Source: Gammaproteobacteria bacterium
GTDB taxonomy: Bacteria; Pseudomonadota; Gammaproteobacteria; Steroidobacterales; PWYM01
DNA length: 32,557 bases
Direction of reading: 5' to 3'
Assembly (NCBI GenBank): GCA_007693855.1
Contig: RECU01000015.1
Location: 1-32,557 of the forward strand
Below are positions 2,701-11,682 of the stretch, one piece after another; position 1 is the stretch's first letter; every line of letters starts with the position of its first letter. The position numbers and the translations under genes are program-made. A model generated the notes under the pieces. That model made no database searches. It saw only the letters and a list, made by a program, of their open reading frames with translations, and had not been told where the DNA came from.

Positions 2701-4572
2701 ATGTCTGTCCGTCGCCGGGATCACCGCGTGCCTCTGCCCGATCCGCACATCGTCGCCGTCTGGTTGCTGGTGCTGCTGGCCCTGTGGCTGTTCGCGCAGG
2801 ACCGGGTGGCGCACGAGTCTGCGGCGTTGGGTTTTCTGGTCGTCGTGCTGCTCGTGGTGCATTTTTTCCCTCTGCCAGCGGAGGTCGCAGCCCTGTCCCC
2901 CGGGGAGGTCGTTGCGAGACTCGGCCATCCCGCGCTGGTCACGATCATCGCGCTGGTGATCCTCGCCCGTGGACTCGAGTCCACCGGTGCCTTCGCACGG
3001 CTGTTCGAGGCGCTGGGCCGACTGTGGCAGCATCATCCGGGTGCCGGTCTGCCGGCGATGCTGCTGGTGGCCGGCGTGCTCAGCGCGGTCCTCAGCAATG
3101 CGGCGGTCGTGGTGATGATCATGCCCGCGCTGATCGGCATCGCGCTGCAACAGCAGCTGCGGCCCTCGCGTCTGCTGATGCCGATCGGTTTTGCGGTGTT
3201 GATCGGAGGGATGGCCTCGGCGATCGGCGCCTCGACCAACCTCGTCGCATTGGCGCTGGCCGCCGACCTCGGTGCACCACCGATCGGGATCGCCGAACTG
3301 GCCTGGCCGGTGTCCATTGTCGGGCTGCTGGCGCTGCTCTACCTGTGGCTGCTTGCACCGCGCCTGCTGCCCGAACGCAATGCGCCGCTGGGAGACACTG
3401 CCCCGCGCGTATTCGCCGCCGTGCTGCGCATTGATGAGGACAGCGCGGCAGCGGGCCTGACCCTGCCGGCGGTGCGGGCGCTGACCGACAATCAGTTGCG
3501 CGTCGACCGCGTGCAGCGTGGCGAGAACCTGTTTGTCGCCAAGCTCCCCTCGCTGGTGATCCAGCCCGGAGACCGCCTGCATGTCCGCGATCTGCCCGAG
3601 CGGCTGAAGCGTTTCGAACGGGCGCTCGGCGCCACGCTGGCCACCGAACTGCCCGGTGATGTCGTGGCCGGGACCCAGCAGGATGCCATCCAGGGCCAGC
3701 AGCTCGCCGAGGTCGTGGTCACCCGGGGTGCGCTGCTGCATCAATCCACGCTCGGCGAGACGCGCTTTGCCAGCCGCTTCGGCCTCCTGCCGCTGGCGCT
3801 GCACCGCGCCCGTGCCGAGGCACCGGGCGAACCGGTTGCCGACATCGCCAACACCGTCCTGCGCGCGGGCGACGTCATCCTCGTGCAGGGCAGCCGCCAG
3901 GCGCTGGAGCATGTCCGGCGCAGCGGTGATGCCCTGGTGCTGGATGGCACCATGGATCTGCCGCGCAGCCATCGCGCGCCGCGTGCCTTGGCCGTGTTCG
4001 CGCTGGTGGTGCTGCTTGCCGCGTCAGGCTGGCTGCCGCTGGCCGCCTGTGCCCTGGGGGGCGTCGCCCTGATGCTTGCGACGCGCTGCCTGGCCTGGCG
4101 GGACCTGCCGCAGGTGCTCAGTGCGCGACTGATTCTGACCGTGGCTGCTGGTCTGACGCTGGCGTTGCTGCTGGAGCGCTCCGGCGCCGCCGCGGCACTG
4201 GCCACCGGGCTCGTCCCGACACTCTCGGCCTGGCCGCCCGCACTGGTGCTGGCGACGTTCATGGGTGTCCTGCTGCTGGTCACTACGGTCACGGCCAACG
4301 TCATCGTTGCCGCCGTCGGGGTGTCTGTCGCCGTGCCGCTGGCCCTGGTCCTCGGCGCCCCCGTCCAGGCGTATGTGCTCGCCGCGCTGTTTGGCGCGAG
4401 CCTGAGTTTCATGCGTCCCGGCGGCTACCAGAGCAACCTGCTGCTGCTCAGTACCGGCGGCTACCGACGGGGCGACTTCGCACGGGTGGGCACACCCCTC
4501 GCGCTACTGCTCTGGCTGGCGTTCAGCGGCCTGCTCGCGTTGCGCTACGGGCTGCTGGAGGGCCTGGTCTGA
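2701..4572 (+). CDS. SLC13-family permease with TrkA-C-like regulatory domains
   Basis: A 623-residue inner-membrane carrier of the divalent anion/sodium symporter (DASS, SLC13) superfamily. About six hydrophobic segments (residues ~17-220) precede a soluble insert (~235-410) and a second membrane half (~420-620). The first half has the paired loop motifs LSNAAVVVMIMP (~124) and GASTNLVAL (~179), typical substrate/Na+ loops of this group. The insert contains repeats like TrkA-C (RCK-C) domains, for example 'GENLFVAKLPSLVIQPGDRLHV' (~280), and a second copy near 335-400, which may bind a regulatory ligand. Such proteins carry sulfate, dicarboxylates or related anions; the substrate cannot be read here. 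The frame is closed by a stop at 2692-2694, so ATG 2701 is the first possible start; it has no clear ribosome site. The gene upstream is divergent. Confidence 0.85.
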   Translation: MSVRRRDHRVPLPDPHIVAVWLLVLLALWLFAQDRVAHESAALGFLVVVLLVVHFFPLPAEVAALSPGEVVARLGHPALVTIIALVILARGLESTGAFARLFEALGRLWQHHPGAGLPAMLLVAGVLSAVLSNAAVVVMIMPALIGIALQQQLRPSRLLMPIGFAVLIGGMASAIGASTNLVALALAADLGAPPIGIAELAWPVSIVGLLALLYLWLLAPRLLPERNAPLGDTAPRVFAAVLRIDEDSAAAGLTLPAVRALTDNQLRVDRVQRGENLFVAKLPSLVIQPGDRLHVRDLPERLKRFERALGATLATELPGDVVAGTQQDAIQGQQLAEVVVTRGALLHQSTLGETRFASRFGLLPLALHRARAEAPGEPVADIANTVLRAGDVILVQGSRQALEHVRRSGDALVLDGTMDLPRSHRAPRALAVFALVVLLAASGWLPLAACALGGVALMLATRCLAWRDLPQVLSARLILTVAAGLTLALLLERSGAAAALATGLVPTLSAWPPALVLATFMGVLLLVTTVTANVIVAAVGVSVAVPLALVLGAPVQAYVLAALFGASLSFMRPGGYQSNLLLLSTGGYRRGDFARVGTPLALLLWLAFSGLLALRYGLLEGLV

Positions 4573-4640
4573 GGTTGCGATCTCGGGGTCGCGTACAATC
4601 GTCGGATCCGGCCATACCTGCAGCGGAACGGGGTGAAAAC

Positions 4641-5015
4641 ATGAGTGAGATCAGCGAAATGCCCGCGGGCCCACCGAGCAAGGAAGAGCGCAACTGGGCG
4701 CTGCTCGCACACCTGAGCGCAGTCGCGGGCGTCCTGCTCGCCGGGCTGGGCATGGTGCTGGGGCCGCTGGTGGTCTGGCTGCTCAAGCGCGAGGACAGTG
4801 AGTTCGTCGCCGATCAGGCCAAGGAGGCACTCAACTTCAACATCACCATGCTGCTCGGCTACATCGTCGGCGTGATTCTCATTCCGATATTGATCGGCGT
4901 GGTGATTCTGCCGGTGCTGGGACTGCTGCACCTGGTGTTCATGATCGTGGCGATGATCCGGGCCAGCGAGGGTCAGCGTTACCGCTACCCCTTCGCCCTG
5001 CGCCTGGTGAGCTGA
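4641..5015 (+). CDS. DUF4870 (Tic20-like) membrane protein
   Basis: A 124-residue membrane protein with the DUF4870 pattern: a polar N-terminus, 'ERNWALLAHLSAVAG' opening the first membrane helix, the conserved 'FVADQAKEALNFNITMLL' in the middle, and a C-terminal helix ending 'RYRYPFALRLV'. Three to four hydrophobic helices are expected. I chose ATG 4641 over an in-frame ATG at 4575 because a GGGG stretch sits 7-11 bases upstream and the product then begins exactly where the family begins. No biochemical role is established for DUF4870. It lies 68 bases after the permease gene and just upstream of the trp promoter, with no terminator visible between, so some read-through into the trp leader is possible. 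Confidence 0.85.
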   Translation: MSEISEMPAGPPSKEERNWALLAHLSAVAGVLLAGLGMVLGPLVVWLLKREDSEFVADQAKEALNFNITMLLGYIVGVILIPILIGVVILPVLGLLHLVFMIVAMIRASEGQRYRYPFALRLVS

Positions 5016-5024
5016 GCCCGCGGC

Positions 5025-5053
5025 TTGACGGGCAGGGCAGTGCCGGGAATACT
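5025..5053 (+). promoter_or_regulatory. Predicted sigma-70 promoter of the trp operon
   Basis: TTGACG (5025-5030) and AATACT (5048-5053) match the -35 (5 of 6) and -10 (4 of 6) hexamers with an ideal 17-base spacer. Transcription would begin around 5059-5063, that is at or within a few bases of the leader-peptide ATG at 5063. It is the only good match between the DUF4870 stop (5015) and the leader. I see no TrpR-like operator. Confidence 0.65.
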
Positions 5054-5062
5054 CCGTCCACG

Positions 5063-5143
5063 ATGCAGACTCAGGCAAGCGACATCCGCCGGTCACCGGC
5101 GCTGTGGTGGTGGCCTCTCCCAGCGGAGAGGGTCATCAGCTAG
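5063..5143 (+). CDS. trpL: Tryptophan operon leader peptide with three tandem Trp codons
   Basis: A 26-codon frame (ATG 5063 to TAG 5141-5143) encodes a peptide beginning MQTQASDIRR with TGG TGG TGG at 5105-5113 (residues 15-17), the hallmark of a Trp attenuator peptide. The stop codon lies 10 bases beyond RNA segment 2 of the attenuator, so a ribosome that finishes translation would cover that segment. No Shine-Dalgarno precedes the ATG, and the predicted promoter puts the RNA 5' end at or next to it, which suggests leaderless translation, as known for trpL of Sinorhizobium meliloti and actinobacteria. Its role is to sense charged tRNA-Trp: stalling at the Trp codons permits transcription of trpEGDCFBA. 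The frame is too short for ordinary gene callers. Confidence 0.92.
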   Translation: MQTQASDIRRSPALWWWPLPAERVIS

Positions 5144-5195
5144 GCGTCGCGGCATCTGACTGAAACCACCCATCTCCGCAGGGCCGGGGGTGGGT
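5114..5195 (+). promoter_or_regulatory. trp attenuator: 1:2, 2:3 and 3:4 alternative RNA structures
   Basis: Segment 1 (5114-5120, CCTCTCC) pairs with 5125-5131 (GGAGAGG) around a CAGC loop, starting on the base after the third Trp codon. Segment 2 (5123-5133) pairs with segment 3 (5168-5179): seven pairs, a bulged A5172, then four more, forming the antiterminator. Segment 3 (5168-5178) alternatively pairs with segment 4 (5185-5195) in an uninterrupted 11-pair stem (two G-U) with a 6-base loop, forming the terminator. 2:3 and 3:4 exclude each other base for base. A ribosome stalled at the Trp codons would mask segment 1, free segment 2 and allow the antiterminator; completed translation would favour 3:4. 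Confidence 0.92.
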
Positions 5196-5203
5196 TTTTT
5201 TTT
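5168..5203 (+). terminator. Attenuator terminator ahead of trpE
   Basis: The stem 5168-5178/5185-5195 with loop CAGGGC is followed by a run of nine T (5195-5203, the first paired with A5168). It ends 28 bases before the trpE start codon, so premature termination removes the whole operon. Confidence 0.92.
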
Positions 5204-5231
5204 GCCCTCGGCCCGCGGAATCGAGGAGCAC

Positions 5232-6617
5232 ATGCAGGCACCGTTCGACATTGCCGCCGACCTGGATACCCCGGTATCGGCGTATCTGAAACTTGGCGCG
5301 TTCCAGCCCCGCTTTCTGCTGGAGAGTGTGGAGGGCGGCCGCCATCTGGCGCGCTATTCCTTCATCGGCTTCGGCGAGGCCATGGAAGTGCGCCTCACGC
5401 CCGAGGCGCTGCTGGTGGACGGTCGTGAGATGCCGCGCCCGGAGGGTCGCGCGGCCCTGCTGGATGCCTGGCGAACGCTGCTTGCCCGGGCCCCGCAACC
5501 CGGTCCTGTGGTGCCCGGGATACCGTTTACCGGGGGGTTGGTCGGCGTTGCCGGCTACGATGTCGTGCGTTTCTTCGAGCGTCTGCCCTCGCGACATGCC
5601 CCGCATCCGGGGCTGCCGGAGGCGGCGTTCGTCGCGCCTGAATCGCTGCTGGTGTTCGACCATCTGACCCGCCGCGCGGCGCTGCTGCACGCCGGCGGTG
5701 AACAGGAGCGACAGGTCCTGCGTCGCGAGGTGATCGATGCCCTGGCCGGCGGTATCGCCCGCAGTGCCAGCCGTGGCACCTTCACGCTACCGCAGGGCAG
5801 CATGGACGAGGCGGCGTACATCGACGCGGTGGGCCGCGCCCAGGCCTCGATTGCCGCCGGCGACATCTACCAGCTGGTGCTGTCGGTGCGCTTTGCCGGG
5901 CGCTTCAGTCTCGATCCCTTCGAGGCTTACCGCGCCATGCGCCTGATCAATCCCTCGCCGTACATGTTCTTCTGTGACCTGGGGGATCTGCAGCTGGTCG
6001 GCTCCTCGCCCGAGGCGCTGGTGCGCTTGCACGGGCGCACCGCCTCGCTGCGGCCGATCGCCGGTACCCGTCCTCGTGGTGACAGCGACGATGCCGACCT
6101 CGCCCTGGAGCGTGATCTGCTGGCAGACCCCAAGGAGAATGCCGAGCACGTGATGCTGGTCGACCTTGCGCGCAACGATCTCGGCCGCGTGGCGCGTGCC
6201 GGCAGTGTGCACGTCGAGCCGTATCGTTCCATCGAACGCTACAGCCACGTGATGCATATCGTCAGCGGTGTGCAGGGCGAGCTCGCCCCGGATGCCGATG
6301 CCTTCGACCTGTTCGCCGCAGCGTTCCCTGCGGGCACGCTGGTGGGCGCCCCGAAGGTGCGCGCGATGCAGCTGATCGACGAACTCGAGTCGGTGTCGCG
6401 CGGGCTGTATGCCGGCACGGTCGGCTACTTCGGGCACGGTGGCGACATGGACCAGGCGATCGCCATCCGGACCCTGGTGTTCCATGGTGACGAGTACAGT
6501 TTCCAGGCCGGCGCGGGGATCGTCGCCGACAGCGTGCCGGCAAGCGAATATGCCGAGGTATTGGCCAAGAGCGCCATCCTGCGGCGTGCGCTCGCGATGG
6601 CGGAGAAGGGACTATGA
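5232..6617 (+). CDS. trpE: Anthranilate synthase component I
   Basis: With TrpG this 461-residue enzyme converts chorismate and glutamine (or ammonia) to anthranilate, the first committed step to tryptophan. ATG 5232 has GAGGAG four bases upstream; an in-frame ATG at 5190 lies inside the terminator and is not credible. The N-terminal domain has LLES at residues 29-32, the tryptophan feedback site in other TrpE proteins, so allosteric inhibition is probably kept. The C-terminal chorismate-binding domain shows 'GDIYQLVLS', 'RPIAGTRPRG', 'DPKENAEHVMLVDLARND', 'FPAGTLVGAPKVRAM' and 'AGAGIVADS', including the Mg2+ and chorismate residues of the family. It is a little shorter than the ~500 residues of many proteobacterial TrpE. 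First structural gene of the attenuated operon; its stop overlaps the trpG start (ATGA). Confidence 0.96.
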   Translation: MQAPFDIAADLDTPVSAYLKLGAFQPRFLLESVEGGRHLARYSFIGFGEAMEVRLTPEALLVDGREMPRPEGRAALLDAWRTLLARAPQPGPVVPGIPFTGGLVGVAGYDVVRFFERLPSRHAPHPGLPEAAFVAPESLLVFDHLTRRAALLHAGGEQERQVLRREVIDALAGGIARSASRGTFTLPQGSMDEAAYIDAVGRAQASIAAGDIYQLVLSVRFAGRFSLDPFEAYRAMRLINPSPYMFFCDLGDLQLVGSSPEALVRLHGRTASLRPIAGTRPRGDSDDADLALERDLLADPKENAEHVMLVDLARNDLGRVARAGSVHVEPYRSIERYSHVMHIVSGVQGELAPDADAFDLFAAAFPAGTLVGAPKVRAMQLIDELESVSRGLYAGTVGYFGHGGDMDQAIAIRTLVFHGDEYSFQAGAGIVADSVPASEYAEVLAKSAILRRALAMAEKGL

Positions 6618-7201
6618 GGCCGCGGCTGCTGCTGATCGACAACTACGATTCGTTCACCTATAACCTGGTGCAGGCCTTCCTGGTGTTGGGTGCTGACGTG
6701 CTGGTGCACCGGAACGACCAGATTGACGTGGCTGCGGCCCGGGCGCTGGCCCCCAGTCACCTGGTGATCTCTCCAGGTCCCGGGCGGCCGGAGGATGCCG
6801 GCGTGTCGATCGCCATGCTGGAGGCCTTCGCCGGCGAGCTGCCGATCCTCGGGGTGTGCCTGGGCCATCAGTGCATCGTGCAGCTGTTTGGCGGGGAGAT
6901 CGTGCGCGCGAGGCGGCTGATGCATGGCAAGACCTCGCTGGTGCATCACGACGGGCAGGGGGTATACGCCGGGTTACCCGATCCTTTCGAGGCGGGTCGC
7001 TACCACTCGCTGATGGCCGCCGACGAGAGCCTGCCCACAGAGTTGTTCGTCACCGCCAGGACCGATCAGCAGGAAATCATGGGGGTGCGCCACCGCAGCC
7101 TTGCGATCGAGGGCGTGCAGTTCCATCCGGAGAGTGTGCTGACCCCCCAGGGCGATACCCTGATGGCGAACTTTCTGGGTGTGGCCGGGGAGGCGATCTG
7201 A
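6614..7201 (+). CDS. trpG: Anthranilate synthase component II (glutamine amidotransferase)
   Basis: A 195-residue class I glutamine amidotransferase that releases ammonia from glutamine and passes it to TrpE. The triad is visible: Cys82 in 'GVCLGHQC', His171 and Glu173 in 'QFHPES'. The oxyanion loop 'SPGPGRPEDAG' (53-63) and 'RYHSL' (129-133) also match. PabA and TrpG are near-identical in sequence, so the protein may serve p-aminobenzoate synthesis too, but its place between trpE and trpD supports the Trp role. ATG 6614 overlaps the trpE stop by four bases; its stop overlaps the trpD start (TGATG). It stands alone, not fused to TrpD as in enteric bacteria. Confidence 0.95.
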   Translation: MRPRLLLIDNYDSFTYNLVQAFLVLGADVLVHRNDQIDVAAARALAPSHLVISPGPGRPEDAGVSIAMLEAFAGELPILGVCLGHQCIVQLFGGEIVRARRLMHGKTSLVHHDGQGVYAGLPDPFEAGRYHSLMAADESLPTELFVTARTDQQEIMGVRHRSLAIEGVQFHPESVLTPQGDTLMANFLGVAGEAI

Positions 7202-8232
7202 TGGCGGGGTCGTGGCGGGAGATGCTCGAACAGCTGCTCGCCGGACGTGATCTTGCACAAGCCCAGGCCGGTGAGCTGATGCGCGCCCTGGCCGCCGGCG
7301 AGCTGCCGGAGGCGCAGGCCGGCGGACTGCTGTGTGCCCTGCGCGCCAAGGGGGAGACGGCCGAGGAAATCCGCGGCTTCGCCGGCGTCATGCGTGAACT
7401 GGCGGTACGACCCTCGCTGCCGGTGGGCGGGCCTATCGTCGACACCGTTGGCACCGGCGGTGACGGCTCGGGCTCGTTCAACATCTCGACCGGCGCCGGC
7501 CTGCTGGCGGCGGCCTGCGGGGTGCGGGTCGTCAAGCATGGCAACCGCTCGATCTCCAGTCGCTGTGGCAGCGCCGACGTGCTCGAGCACCTCGGCCTGC
7601 CCATGCCGCTGCCCTCGTTGCAGGTCGGCGACTGTCTTGCCGCCACCGGCTTCACCTTCCTGTTCGCGCCGGCGTATCACCCCGCCATGCGCCACATCAT
7701 GCCGGTGCGCAGTGCGCTCGGCGTGCGGACGGTGTTCAATGTCCTGGGCCCGCTGACCAACCCCGCCGCCCCGGACTACCAGCTGATCGGCGCCTACAGT
7801 CTGGACATGGCCAGGTTGATGGCCGAGGCCCTGGCCGGGTTGCCCCTGTCCCGCGCGTTCGTGGTGCACGGCGAGCCGGGATGGGATGAGGCCACCCCCG
7901 CCGGGTGTTATGACCTCTTCGATGTGCGCCCCGGCGAGGTGCGCCATGAGCGTCGGGATCCGCTGGACGTCGGGCTGGCCCGTTGCGCCCCCGAGGCGCT
8001 TGCCGGCGGTGACGCCGCCGCCAACGCAGCCGGTCTGCGCGCCGTGTTCAGCGGCGAGGATCGCGGGCCCCACCGCGACGCCCTGGTGCTGAACGCCGGG
8101 CTGGTGCTGGAGCTGATGGGCGAGGCGGTCGATCTCGGCGAAGGGCTTGCGGCCGCGGTCGCGGCCATCGACGATGGCCGGGCGCGGGCAGTGCTGTCGC
8201 GGATTGCGGCCTTCGGCCGGGGCGTCGCGTGA
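7201..8232 (+). CDS. trpD: Anthranilate phosphoribosyltransferase
   Basis: A 343-residue enzyme that joins anthranilate to phosphoribosyl pyrophosphate, giving phosphoribosylanthranilate. An all-helical N-terminal domain (~1-75) precedes the phosphoribosyltransferase domain with the PRPP loop 'GTGGDGSGSFNIST' (84-97) and 'VKHGNRSISSRCGSADVLEHLG' near 111-132; the common Lys-Ser of that motif is Arg-Cys here. 'GVRTVFNVLGPLTNPA' is also well kept. ATG 7201 overlaps the trpG stop by one base and the stop overlaps the trpC GTG by four, so translation is likely coupled. Cytoplasmic, second step of the pathway. Confidence 0.96.
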   Translation: MAGSWREMLEQLLAGRDLAQAQAGELMRALAAGELPEAQAGGLLCALRAKGETAEEIRGFAGVMRELAVRPSLPVGGPIVDTVGTGGDGSGSFNISTGAGLLAAACGVRVVKHGNRSISSRCGSADVLEHLGLPMPLPSLQVGDCLAATGFTFLFAPAYHPAMRHIMPVRSALGVRTVFNVLGPLTNPAAPDYQLIGAYSLDMARLMAEALAGLPLSRAFVVHGEPGWDEATPAGCYDLFDVRPGEVRHERRDPLDVGLARCAPEALAGGDAAANAAGLRAVFSGEDRGPHRDALVLNAGLVLELMGEAVDLGEGLAAAVAAIDDGRARAVLSRIAAFGRGVA

Positions 8233-9056
8233 CCGCGGGGGAGGGCAACCTGCTCGAGCGCATGGCCGTGGCCGGCCGGGCGCGGGTCGAGGCGGCGCGC
8301 GCTCGCGAGCCGCTGGCCGCCCTGCGCGCCCGTGCTGCCGAGTGCCCGGTGCCGCCGGCACTGCGGCTCGACCCGCGCGGTTTCGACCTCATCGCCGAGG
8401 TCAAGCTGCGCTCGCCGTCGGCCGGCAGCCTCGCTGACGACACGCTCGATCCGGTGGCGCAGGCCGTGAGCTACGCCACGGCCGGCGCCGCGGCCGTGTC
8501 CGTGCTCACCGAGCCGCGCGAATTCGGTGGCAGTCTGGCACATCTCGAGGCGGTGGCTGCTGCGCTCGGGCCGATCGGTGTTCCGGCCATGCGCAAGGAC
8601 TTCCTCGTCGATGTCTACCAGCTGTGGGAGGCCCGCGCGGCGGGGGCGGGAGGCGTGCTGCTGATCCTGGCCATGCTCGACAATCGCGCCGTGATCGATC
8701 TCGTGCAGGCCGCGGCCGAGGCGGGCCTGTTCGTGCTGCTGGAGGCCTTTGACGGGGCTGAGCTCGAACGCGCCGCGATGCTGCTCCCACGCCTCGCCGA
8801 GGCCGAGGTGCTGCTCGGGCTCAACTGCCGCGATCTGCGCAGTCTGGAGGTCGATCGCCAGCGTTTCGAAATGCTGCGTGATCGCTTTGCGCCAGGCTGG
8901 CCGAGCGTGGCTGAGAGCGGGCTGGCGAGCGCCGAGGATGCGGCCTGGGTGTCGGGGCTGGGTTATGACCTCGCACTGGTCGGCTCGTCGCTGATGCGCG
9001 CCGCGGCGCCGGGCGAGTTGCTGGCTGAGATGCTGGCCGCGGGCCGCGCGGCCTGA
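8229..9056 (+). CDS. trpC: Indole-3-glycerol phosphate synthase
   Basis: A 275-residue TIM-barrel enzyme that closes the indole ring of CdRP with loss of CO2 and water. All expected catalytic positions are present: Glu57 and Lys59 in 'AEVKLRSPS', Lys123 in 'MRKDF', Glu172 in 'LLEAF', Asn199 in 'GLNCRDL' and Glu229-Ser230 in 'VAESG'. Surrounding residues differ from common proteobacterial TrpC (often 'KKASPS' and 'NNRDL'), so this is a divergent but apparently active member. The start is GTG 8229, overlapping the trpD stop (GTGA). It is not fused to TrpF, unlike the enteric TrpC-F. Stop overlaps the trpF start (TGATG). Confidence 0.94.
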   Translation: MTAGEGNLLERMAVAGRARVEAARAREPLAALRARAAECPVPPALRLDPRGFDLIAEVKLRSPSAGSLADDTLDPVAQAVSYATAGAAAVSVLTEPREFGGSLAHLEAVAAALGPIGVPAMRKDFLVDVYQLWEARAAGAGGVLLILAMLDNRAVIDLVQAAAEAGLFVLLEAFDGAELERAAMLLPRLAEAEVLLGLNCRDLRSLEVDRQRFEMLRDRFAPGWPSVAESGLASAEDAAWVSGLGYDLALVGSSLMRAAAPGELLAEMLAAGRAA

Positions 9057-9655
9057 TGGCCCTGTGGGTGAAGATCTGCGGCCTGCGCAGTGCCGCGGAC
9101 GTGGCGGCGGCGGTGGCTGCGGGTGCCGATGCGGTCGGTTTCGTGTTCGCGCCCTCGGTGCGCAGGGTGACGCCCGCACAGGCCCGGGCCGCCTGCGCGG
9201 CGCTGCCCGCCGGGGTGTTGCGGCTGGCGGTGATGCGCCATCCTGAGCCCGCAGAATGGCAGGCGGTGGCTTCCGGCTTCGCGCCGGACTGGCTGCAGAC
9301 CGACTGGCAGGATTACGCTGGTCTGGCGTCTGCCGCCGACGTGGGCCGGCTGCCGGTCTATCGCGACGATGCGCCCCCGTCCGAGGGGGTGGCGCTGCCC
9401 TCACCGATGCTGTTCGAGGGGCGTGACAGCGGCAGCGGGCGTCCCGCGGACTGGGCCCGTGCCGCAGAGCTTGCGGCGCGGACGCGCCTGGTGCTTGCCG
9501 GAGGCCTCGATGCGGATACGGTCGCCGAGGCGGTCCGCCGGGTGCGCCCCTGGGGTGTAGACGTGTCAAGTGGCGTGGAGGCCGCGCCCGGGGTGAAAGA
9601 CCCGGGGCGGATCCGCGCGTTTATTGCAGCGGCCCGAGCCGCTGCTGTGGAGTAG
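9056..9655 (+). CDS. trpF: Phosphoribosylanthranilate isomerase, divergent
   Basis: A 199-residue barrel enzyme that isomerises phosphoribosylanthranilate to CdRP. The N-terminus 'VKICGLRS' supplies the general-base Cys (Cys8), and the C-terminal phosphate-binding part 'LAGGLDADTVAEAV...GVDVSSGVE' is typical. Two usual landmarks are changed: the general-acid Asp (Asp126 in Thermotoga numbering, usually 'LLD') aligns with Glu121 in 'MLFEGRDSGSG', and the usual 'QLHGDE' strand reads 'LQTDWQD' (80-86). The assignment rests on the conserved ends and on being the one missing step between trpC and trpB. ATG 9056 overlaps the trpC stop. Probably active, but worth a check. Confidence 0.9.
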   Translation: MALWVKICGLRSAADVAAAVAAGADAVGFVFAPSVRRVTPAQARAACAALPAGVLRLAVMRHPEPAEWQAVASGFAPDWLQTDWQDYAGLASAADVGRLPVYRDDAPPSEGVALPSPMLFEGRDSGSGRPADWARAAELAARTRLVLAGGLDADTVAEAVRRVRPWGVDVSSGVEAAPGVKDPGRIRAFIAAARAAAVE

Positions 9656-9659
9656 CGGC

Positions 9660-10913
9660 GTGACGATTGAATTCAGTGAGACGGAGAAAGCCCGGTTGCT
9701 GGAGGCGACCATCGCCGGGCAACTGCCCGACGAGCGCGGGCGATTCGGCCCCTTCGGCGGACGGTATGTCCCCGAGACCCTGGTACCGGCGCTCGAGCGG
9801 CTGACCGAAGGCATGCACCGGCATCTCGCCGACCGGGCATTTCTCGAGCGCTTCCGCCATGAGCTCACCACCTGGGTGGGCCGGCCGACACCGTTGACCG
9901 AGGCGCCCAATCTGGGCCGGGCCTGGGGGGCACAGGTGTGGCTCAAGCGGGAGGATCTCGCCCACACTGGCGCGCACAAGATCAACAATGCCATCGGCCA
10001 GGCACTGCTGGCGAAGCTGCTGGGCGCCCGCCGCGTGATCGCCGAGACCGGCGCCGGTCAGCACGGCGTGGCCTCGGCGGCAGCCTGTGCCCGGGTCGGG
10101 CTGCCCTGTACGGTCTACATGGGTGCCGTCGACGTCGAGCGCCAGGCGCCCAACGTCGATCGCATGCGCAGGCTCGGTGCCGAGGTGCATGCGGTCCAGT
10201 CCGGCGACCGGACGCTGCGCTCGGCCATCGACGAGGCGCTGCGCGACTGGGTGTCCGATCCGGCCGGGACCTACTATCTGCTGGGCTCGGCCGTGGGGCC
10301 GCACCCCTATCCATACCTGGTGCGGGAACTCCACTGCGTCATCGGGCGGGAATCGCGCGCGCAGATGCTCACCGCGGCCGGGGCACTGCCCGATGCCGTG
10401 TTCGCCTGTGTCGGCGGTGGCTCCAATGCCATCGGCCTGTTTCACCCGATGGTGGGTGATCCGGGGGTGGCGCTGATCGGCGTCGAGGCGGGCGGCCGGG
10501 GCGGCGGGCTGGGCGAGCATTCCGCGACACTCTCGCGCGGGCGACCCGGGGTGCTCCAGGGCTGCTACACGCTGCTGCTGCAGGATGATGACGGCCAGGT
10601 GCAGGGTACCCACTCGATTTCCGCCGGTCTGGACTATCCGGGCGTAGGTCCGGAGCATGCGCTGCTGCAGAGCATCGGTCGGGTGCGCTACACCAACGCT
10701 CGCGATGACGACGCCCTCGATGCCCTCAACGAGTGCTGCGCCCTGGAGGGTATTCTGCCGGCGCTGGAGACCGCGCATGCCTTCGCCGGGGCCCGCGCCT
10801 GGGCCCGCGAAAACTCCGGCCGCCGCATCCTCATCGGCCTGTCCGGACGCGGCGACAAGGACATGCCGACGCTGAGCCGTTTCCCCATGGAGGCCCGACA
10901 TGCAACCGCATGA
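9660..10913 (+). CDS. trpB: Tryptophan synthase beta chain
   Basis: A 417-residue PLP enzyme that condenses indole with serine; partner of TrpA in the alpha2-beta2 complex with an indole channel. The PLP lysine is Lys107 in 'HTGAHKINN'; Glu129 in 'AETGAGQHGVA' is the catalytic acid/base; 'GGGSNAIG' binds the cofactor phosphate. I chose GTG 9660 because GGAG sits seven bases upstream (9649-9652), it follows the trpF stop by four bases, and the product then begins at the family's usual place. An in-frame ATG at 9624 lies inside trpF. The C-terminus is extended slightly and its coding end overlaps trpA by 14 bases. It belongs to the standard TrpB1 type. Confidence 0.96.
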   Translation: MTIEFSETEKARLLEATIAGQLPDERGRFGPFGGRYVPETLVPALERLTEGMHRHLADRAFLERFRHELTTWVGRPTPLTEAPNLGRAWGAQVWLKREDLAHTGAHKINNAIGQALLAKLLGARRVIAETGAGQHGVASAAACARVGLPCTVYMGAVDVERQAPNVDRMRRLGAEVHAVQSGDRTLRSAIDEALRDWVSDPAGTYYLLGSAVGPHPYPYLVRELHCVIGRESRAQMLTAAGALPDAVFACVGGGSNAIGLFHPMVGDPGVALIGVEAGGRGGGLGEHSATLSRGRPGVLQGCYTLLLQDDDGQVQGTHSISAGLDYPGVGPEHALLQSIGRVRYTNARDDDALDALNECCALEGILPALETAHAFAGARAWARENSGRRILIGLSGRGDKDMPTLSRFPMEARHATA

Positions 10914-11682
10914 GCGCATCACCGACAGTATCCGCCGTGCCAATGCCGCCGGCCGCCCGGCGCTGGTGGCTTTCATGACTGCGGGCCACCCCACGCCCGC
11001 GGGCTTCCTGCCATCGCTCTCGGCCATCGCCGCCGAGGCGGACGTGGTCGAGATCGGCGTGCCGTTCAGTGATCCGATGGCCGATGGCATGACCATCCAG
11101 CGCGCCAGCCAATCGGCGATCGCCCAGGGGGTGAGCCTGCGCTGGATTCTCGACCGGCTTGCCGAGCATGACGGTGATGGCAAGGCCCCGTTGCTGCTGA
11201 TGAGCTATCTCAACCCGCTGTTGAACTTTGGTTATGAGGCGCTCGCCCGCCGCGCGGCGGAGGTGGGCGTCTGCGGGTTCATCGTGCCGGACCTGCCGCT
11301 GGAGGAGAGTGCGCCACTGGGCGACGCGCTGGCCGCCGTCGGGGTGGGCCTGGTGCAGATGGTCACCCCGGCGACGCCGCTGACACGGGCCCGGCGTCTG
11401 TGCGAGGCCAGCCGCGGGTTTGTCTATGCCGTGACCATGACCGGCATTACCGGAGGCGCCGGCGGGTTGCCGGAGGGGGTCGCGGAGTATCTGGATGCGC
11501 TCTCCGAGGTGTCGCCGCTGCCGGTGTGTGCGGGTTTCGGTATCCGCAGTGCGGAGCAGGTGCGGATGATCGGTGGCCATGCCGCGGGTGCCGTGGTTGG
11601 CTCGGCGCTGGTGGAGGCGCTGGAAGACGGGCAGACTGACGTGGCCGCGTTTCTTCGCGGCCTGCGTGGCGAGGCGGCCTGA
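10900..11682 (+). CDS. trpA: Tryptophan synthase alpha chain
   Basis: A 260-residue barrel enzyme that cleaves indole-3-glycerol phosphate to indole and glyceraldehyde 3-phosphate, feeding indole to TrpB. Catalytic Glu51 and Asp62 lie in 'VEIGVPFSDPMADG'. 'SYLNPLLNFGYE' and 'GFIVPDLPLEE' match the family. The usual 'SRxGVTG' loop reads 'VTMTGITGG', an ordinary variation. GGAGG (10889-10893) precedes ATG 10900 within the trpB coding sequence, and the two genes overlap by 14 bases. No terminator follows; the next gene begins 14 bases after the stop. Confidence 0.96.
   Translation: MQPHERITDSIRRANAAGRPALVAFMTAGHPTPAGFLPSLSAIAAEADVVEIGVPFSDPMADGMTIQRASQSAIAQGVSLRWILDRLAEHDGDGKAPLLLMSYLNPLLNFGYEALARRAAEVGVCGFIVPDLPLEESAPLGDALAAVGVGLVQMVTPATPLTRARRLCEASRGFVYAVTMTGITGGAGGLPEGVAEYLDALSEVSPLPVCAGFGIRSAEQVRMIGGHAAGAVVGSALVEALEDGQTDVAAFLRGLRGEAA

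Follow-up and report, generated by a model that had tools for sequence, protein, structure and literature searches.

In Escherichia coli, the 5′ UTR that precedes trpL contains a ribosome-binding site, and TrpR acts as a further repressor of the trp operon. Attenuation there involves, as at the locus described here, a Trp-codon peptide, competition among 1:2, 2:3, and 3:4 pairings, and an intrinsic terminator before trpE; the E. coli leader is represented in Rfam by the family Trp_leader. Proteobacterial attenuators were reportedly covered by a survey in 2004.

Leaderless trp leaders have been published from alphaproteobacteria and actinomycetes. The excerpted report on the alphaproteobacterium Sinorhizobium meliloti describes an rnTrpL transcript beginning with the trpL ATG and a trp operon without transcriptional repression (PMC7298713). 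Its trpLE(G) leader resembles ours in having consecutive Trp codons and, as is predicted for ours, a leaderless trpL, and differs in its 14-aa peptide, in the presence of three trp operons, and in the trans roles shown there. In the excerpt on the actinomycete Streptomyces lividans, trpL1 before trpE is a leaderless WWW peptide, MFAHSTRNWWWTAHPAAH, with hairpins and then U-rich sequence behind it (PMC8079986). A WWW leader peptide before trpE, leaderless there and predicted to be so here, is common to both loci, whereas in S. lividans trpE is monocistronic and the leader was found by RNA-seq. Caulobacter is described in part of a further report as having many leaderless mRNAs (PMC4117421). The excerpted text of a premature-terminator survey contains neither "trpE" nor "leaderless" (PMC2965389), and the only attenuator mentioned in that of a leaderless-translation review is a mycobacterial one among the references (PMC9031893). 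Among the matches listed from the open-access full-text literature, we found none that reports a leaderless trp attenuator from a gammaproteobacterium. Thus, the leaderless trp attenuator is a known kind, and the membership of the order that includes Woeseia (placed by NCBI in Woeseiales) appears to be new.

Here we analyze the region upstream of trpE in a 32,557-nucleotide stretch of gammaproteobacterial DNA (the window). Throughout, "the order" is the bacterial order of the window's bacterium and "the class" is Gammaproteobacteria.

Results

Mutually exclusive helices precede the trp operon

Direct reading of the sequence bore out, to the base, the elements that an earlier, sequence-only reading had described upstream of trpE (Table 1): a 26-codon frame from the ATG at 5063 to the TAG at 5141-5143, with TGG ×3 at 5105-5113; an 11-bp 2:3 pairing (the antiterminator) of GCGGAGAGGGT at 5123-5133 with ACCCATCTCCGC at 5168-5179, interrupted by one bulged A; and an 11-bp 3:4 pairing (the terminator), including two G-U pairs, of ACCCATCTCCG at 5168-5178 with CGGGGGTGGGT at 5185-5195, together with nine T. 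As that reading had proposed, the 2:3 and 3:4 pairings exclude each other because both need the overlapping bases of segment 3. The 1:2 hairpin was described too short. Its 7-bp core after the TGG codons (CCTCTCC at 5114-5120 with GGAGAGG at 5125-5131) is present, but the minimum free energy (MFE) stem is 13 bp long and begins at 5108, so that Trp codons 2 and 3 lie inside it.

Table 1. Features of the trp leader region and operon in window coordinates.
Feature	Position	Strand	Basis
-35 hexamer TTGACG	5025-5030	+	Sequence; TTGACN recurs in most order relatives
-10 hexamer AATACT, spacer 17 nt	5048-5053	+	Sequence; relatives; pattern scan
Predicted transcription start region, 5′ UTR ~0-4 nt	5059-5063	+	Inferred from -10 position
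trpL leader peptide MQTQASDIRRSPALWWWPLPAERVIS	5063-5143 (stop TAG 5141-5143)	+	Sequence; comparison with relatives
Sensor, three tandem Trp codons (TGG ×3)	5105-5113	+	Sequence; relatives; alignment
1:2 hairpin, MFE 13 bp (5108-5120/5125-5138, bulged base 5130)	5108-5138	+	Folding
Segment 2, antiterminator partner of segment 3	5123-5133	+	Codes for AERV of the peptide
Segment 3, common to antiterminator and terminator	5168-5179	+	Sequence; alignment; permutation test
Segment 4, 11-bp terminator stem with 5168-5178	5185-5195	+	Sequence; helix covariation; pattern scan
T9 tract	5195-5203	+	Sequence; pattern scan
Shine-Dalgarno-like GAGGAG of trpE	5223-5228	+	Read directly
trpE, 461 aa, first gene of the operon	5232-6617	+	Pfam Anth_synt_I_N and Chorismate_bind
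trpG, trpD, trpC, trpF, trpB, trpA, in that order	6614-11682	+	Pfam/NCBIfam profiles

The fold of 5063-5203 has an energy of −67.5 kcal/mol (z = −3.50), which none of 200 shuffles equaled; over all 121 nt of 5060-5180, z was −1.56 and 12 of 200 shuffles were as good. A pattern scan of 4800-5400 found a single terminator-like site, at 5168-5195 (shuffles 0.3 ± 0.5), and a single promoter-like site, at 5025-5053 (shuffles 0.1 ± 0.3). Rfam (4227 families searched) gave no match at gathering score in the whole window; the seven matches in region 5000-5260 were all below that score, and none was a trp leader.

The operon downstream of the attenuator is trpEGDCFBA, and its first gene begins 28 nt after the end of the T tract. 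Since the downstream genes are trpE, trpG, trpD, trpC, trpF, trpB, and trpA, the setting fits trp control; the best NCBIfam profile for trpE is trpE_most, with a score below the family cut-off. The locus combines the features by which we recognized an attenuator, namely a tandem-Trp frame before trp genes, a terminator with a U tract, and a 2:3 helix that shares segment 3. The genes upstream of the trp promoter are on the same strand. The interval 2701-5015 holds a CitMHS/TrkA_C transporter gene, separated from trpE by a DUF4870 gene that ends at 5015, and in several relatives a similar transporter frame seems, by eye, to finish just before the trp promoter.

The predicted promoter abuts the leader start codon

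The leader ATG is preceded, across a gap of 9 nt, by a sigma-70-like promoter (TTGACG-17-AATACT) that is absent from the sequence-only reading. Transcription usually starts 6-8 nt after the −10 element, so the RNA should begin within ~4 nt of the ATG, leaving no room for a Shine-Dalgarno sequence before trpL. Because the gap is 9 nt and the start is taken from the consensus, the 5′ UTR in the window could be ~3 nt rather than zero. In its sequence, then, the locus has a promoter-like site that would place the transcript start at, or a few nt from, the start codon, which is what we looked for in a leaderless attenuator, and trpL is predicted to be a leaderless reading frame. The earlier claim of a classic layout in every part fails at this point: unlike at E. 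coli trpL, the predicted promoter and start leave no space for a ribosome-binding site.

In E. coli, TrpR represses the trp operon; in this genome, the sole TrpR-family (PF01371) match lies directly before hisG. Given this position, the trp operon may be controlled mainly by attenuation. The TrpR-family gene (L166/L227, G000:C36:49670-50541) is itself preceded by a palindrome around GTGCTAGTACATTAATAC and is possibly a regulator of the histidine pathway.

We searched the genome for further loci of this layout with the strict pattern TTGAC-N17..19-ATACT-N6..10-ATG, which matched twice (reversed control, 0). One match was trpL; the other, on another contig (L160, G000:C55:53933-53969, minus strand), lies before a 104-codon frame that, read by eye, looks like a RelE/HigB-type toxin. 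With this frame as the only non-trpL match, the pattern gave no further candidate for a leaderless attenuator in the genome. By eye, no leader-type attenuator was visible in the ~500 nt before ilvB, leuA, or hisG.

Trp codons and both pairings recur in relatives

The sequence-only reading had proposed a comparison with regions upstream of trpE in related genomes as its check. Of 59 genomes approached via TrpE, 50 gave such a region, which we examined, the other nine having no usable full-length match. Outside the order, 103 genomes gave a match, and 88 loci (28 + 60) were examined. The TrpE of the window's type (at least 54% identity) occurs at 46 order loci (L001-L045 and L050), 45 of which have a short Trp frame abutting a promoter; most order loci with a leader also have a terminator with a T tract. 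The exception among the 46, L042, belongs to a small 1.6-Mb genome and has no Trp leader before its own-type trpE. Together with L065 and L066, it makes up the loci that have the window's TrpE type and no Trp leader that we could find. At L026 and L032, the Trp leader is kept and the terminator lacks a T tract, and control may differ there; the leader of L025 has one Trp only.

We aligned 54 cores (alignment A1). Of 58 leaders tried, L053 was not parsed; L026, L032, and L056 were omitted for want of a good terminator core, the duplicates L052 and L057 were dropped, and L065 and L066 (TrpE 63-65%, no Trp leader) stand outside the alignment. In statistics that take the sequences as independent and ignore their relatedness, pairing in the 3:4 helix held in 96.3% of cells, 7 of its 11 pairs (33 cells) had changed on both sides, and none of 500 shuffles was as high. 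The 2:3 helix was paired in 78.8% of cells and contained 36 double-changed cells versus 19.7 in shuffles (0 of 500 as high); over the same 54 cores, neither its count of covarying pairs (reached by 73 of 500 shuffles) nor its count of pair types (reached by 200 of 500) exceeded the shuffled level. Covariation is thus weaker, and the helix looser, in 2:3 than in 3:4. A register-free test under the same assumption of independence compared cognate with non-cognate segments, and own-species segments paired better for both 2:3 (−16.4 versus −14.2 kcal/mol) and 3:4 (−21.1 versus −17.9 kcal/mol), in each case with 0 of 5000 permutations as good.

The check therefore came out in favor of the earlier proposal: Trp codons recur and the 2:3 and 3:4 pairings co-vary. 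Conservation in relatives speaks against a chance origin of the elements. It also bears on whether the 3:4 stem might be a constitutive terminator, or that of the upstream gene, with the Trp frame incidental. The intrinsic terminator is indeed strong, and L065 keeps a similar one before trpE with no Trp frame seen, but Trp codons recur alongside a competing 2:3 helix whose partners co-vary, and we consider this explanation highly improbable. Ribosome-mediated trp attenuation, as the sequence-only reading had it, is supported by the recurrence of Trp codons, both pairings, and the U tract in most sampled order genomes.

Many of the leader peptides have an AERV-like end. Because this end is the translation of segment 2, it needs no function of the peptide, and segment 2 alone would explain it. 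A related question is whether attenuation is accompanied by trans action of the terminated leader RNA, the peptide, or both, as with rnTrpL and peTrpL of S. meliloti. The small frame, predicted to be leaderless, is of the S. meliloti type, and the 5′ end of rnTrpL, in the excerpted report, is the trpL ATG (PMC7298713); against this, the N terminus of the peptide already varies within one genus, in a comparison of four loci (L001-L004), and we regard added trans action as unlikely.

A covariance model recognizes the attenuator core within the order

Model R1 covers a core starting just before the Trp codons, so that promoter and start codon lie outside it. In searches run with stricter filters, which lose weak matches, R1 matched 223 of 247 order genomes at E ≤ 0.001 and 5 of 370 genomes of a class sample at E ≤ 0.0001. 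All five belong to the same order, and no genome outside the order matched in that sample. Within this sample, class-wide spread of the attenuator RNA was accordingly rejected, since only same-order genomes match, and those five had also given training sequences. Of the 24 misses within the order, 20 are listed, and eight of these fall in one family (f12), of which the four members examined (L046-L049) have a different TrpE, 45-46% identical. Some misses are the model's rather than the attenuator's, because genome G007 was missed although its leader, L024, was used in training.

The predicted leaderless layout recurs across the order

For a blind test of the layout, a promoter was picked by E. 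coli consensus alone, and we then asked for an ATG, GTG, or TTG 5-11 nt after the −10 element as the start of a frame no longer than 45 codons and containing two or more Trp. This test was passed by 44 of 50 order loci, whereas only 2 of the 88 class loci outside the order passed. The two class passes, L140 and L195, had lower promoter scores (6.6 and 7.7). Six order loci failed: L025 has a single Trp, L042 lacks a leader, and L046-L049 carry the different TrpE. In each of the 45 order loci that possess a leader, the −10 element is followed at +6 to +11 by an ATG or GTG. An SD-like motif precedes the leader start in 1 of these 45 and trpE in 24. By a crude regular expression, the first TGG was in frame with the start codon in 41 of 45; in the remaining four (L002, L008, L016, and L025), the expression had caught an unrelated TGG, and Trp is in frame there.

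A further test set comprised 54 loci that matched the model, had not been used in building it, and shared no core with the training set; four fetched loci were dropped as already seen. Here the leaderless layout was found in 49 of 54 loci, with a gap of 6-10 nt (7 nt in 26 of the 49). Of the five failures, four show the layout by eye and L292 has a weak promoter. Additional relatives mostly agree with the leaderless layout, the exceptions being L065, L066, and four loci with a weak or unrecognized promoter (L053, L054, L056, and L060).

These data also weigh on a classical attenuator with a conventional 5′ UTR, in which transcription would begin further upstream, from another promoter or by read-through out of the upstream DUF4870 gene, the promoter-like site would be unused, and trpL translation would not be leaderless. 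The start site in the window is taken from the consensus, the upstream genes are on the same strand, and in L053, L054, L056, L060, and L292 the promoter is weak or not recognized. Set against these points, the promoter-start codon distance stays at 6-11 nt in all 45 order loci with a leader while the surroundings change, and at 6-10 nt in 49 of the 54 further loci, and no SD-like motif precedes the leader start in 44 of 45. A conventional 5′ UTR therefore seems to us an improbable account. A leaderless trp attenuator that unites promoter, start codon, and sensor and is largely fixed in the Woeseia-containing order is a reading we hold tentatively, at slightly less than an even chance.

Outside the order, other Gammaproteobacteria likewise have short frames rich in Trp upstream of trpE, such as those with WRW in L134, L147, and L155, but these three lack a good promoter abutting the leader start codon. 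In L195, a promoter-abutting frame, MFAHGSYKWSKDWSCRWW, precedes trpE and is possibly a separate leaderless Trp leader within the class. On a deltaproteobacterial contig (L109), TTGACA-17-TAAGAT-7-ATG opens MNHEQRYHYISLGNWWWLNSDLS ~261 nt before trpE in a leaderless layout, perhaps a convergent one outside the class.

A folding model favors the antiterminator when the ribosome stalls

We consider it very likely that transcription of the trpEGDCFBA operon is controlled here by a ribosome-mediated attenuator whose leader peptide is leaderless. RNA polymerase would start at, or a few bases from, the trpL ATG, and the ribosome would initiate without a Shine-Dalgarno sequence, by analogy as a 70S ribosome on the 5′-terminal AUG. 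With Trp-tRNA plentiful, the ribosome would reach the stop codon and cover segment 2; 3:4 would then form, transcription would stop in the T tract with release of a ~140-nt RNA. With Trp-tRNA scarce, the ribosome would stall on the WWW codons and cover segment 1, segment 2 would capture segment 3, and the operon would be transcribed with no terminator formed.

A simple folding calculation with a ribosome footprint, rough and to be read for direction only, gave, for every one of the 57 leaders, greater upstream pairing of segment 3 with the ribosome stalled at Trp than with it at the stop codon. In this model, the mean upstream pairing probability over the 57 was 0.77 stalled, 0.41 at the stop codon, and 0.54 with no ribosome, and the terminator had a mean probability of 0.88 with the ribosome at the stop codon. 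The corresponding upstream pairing values for segment 3 of the window were 0.90, 0.59, and 0.17 (free). Both strict thresholds of the model were passed by 24 of 57 leaders, and segment 3 was free without a ribosome (≤0.3) in only 13 of 57.

Discussion

The mechanism proposed here is an ordinary one, well supported by comparison; the surprise, judged from sequence, would be a leaderless layout that runs through the order. With it, a large order gains a defined trp regulatory RNA that is unmatched in the copy of Rfam searched. The finding would add Gammaproteobacteria, the source of the textbook, SD-led trp attenuator, to the alphaproteobacteria and actinomycetes from which leaderless amino-acid attenuators have been reported, and it raises the question of whether attenuation is unchanged if the ribosome that acts as sensor enters at the 5′ end. 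If the leaderless reading is true, control rests on 5′-end 70S initiation rather than on Shine-Dalgarno recruitment, and trp expression would be tied to conditions that alter leaderless translation as well as to Trp-tRNA.
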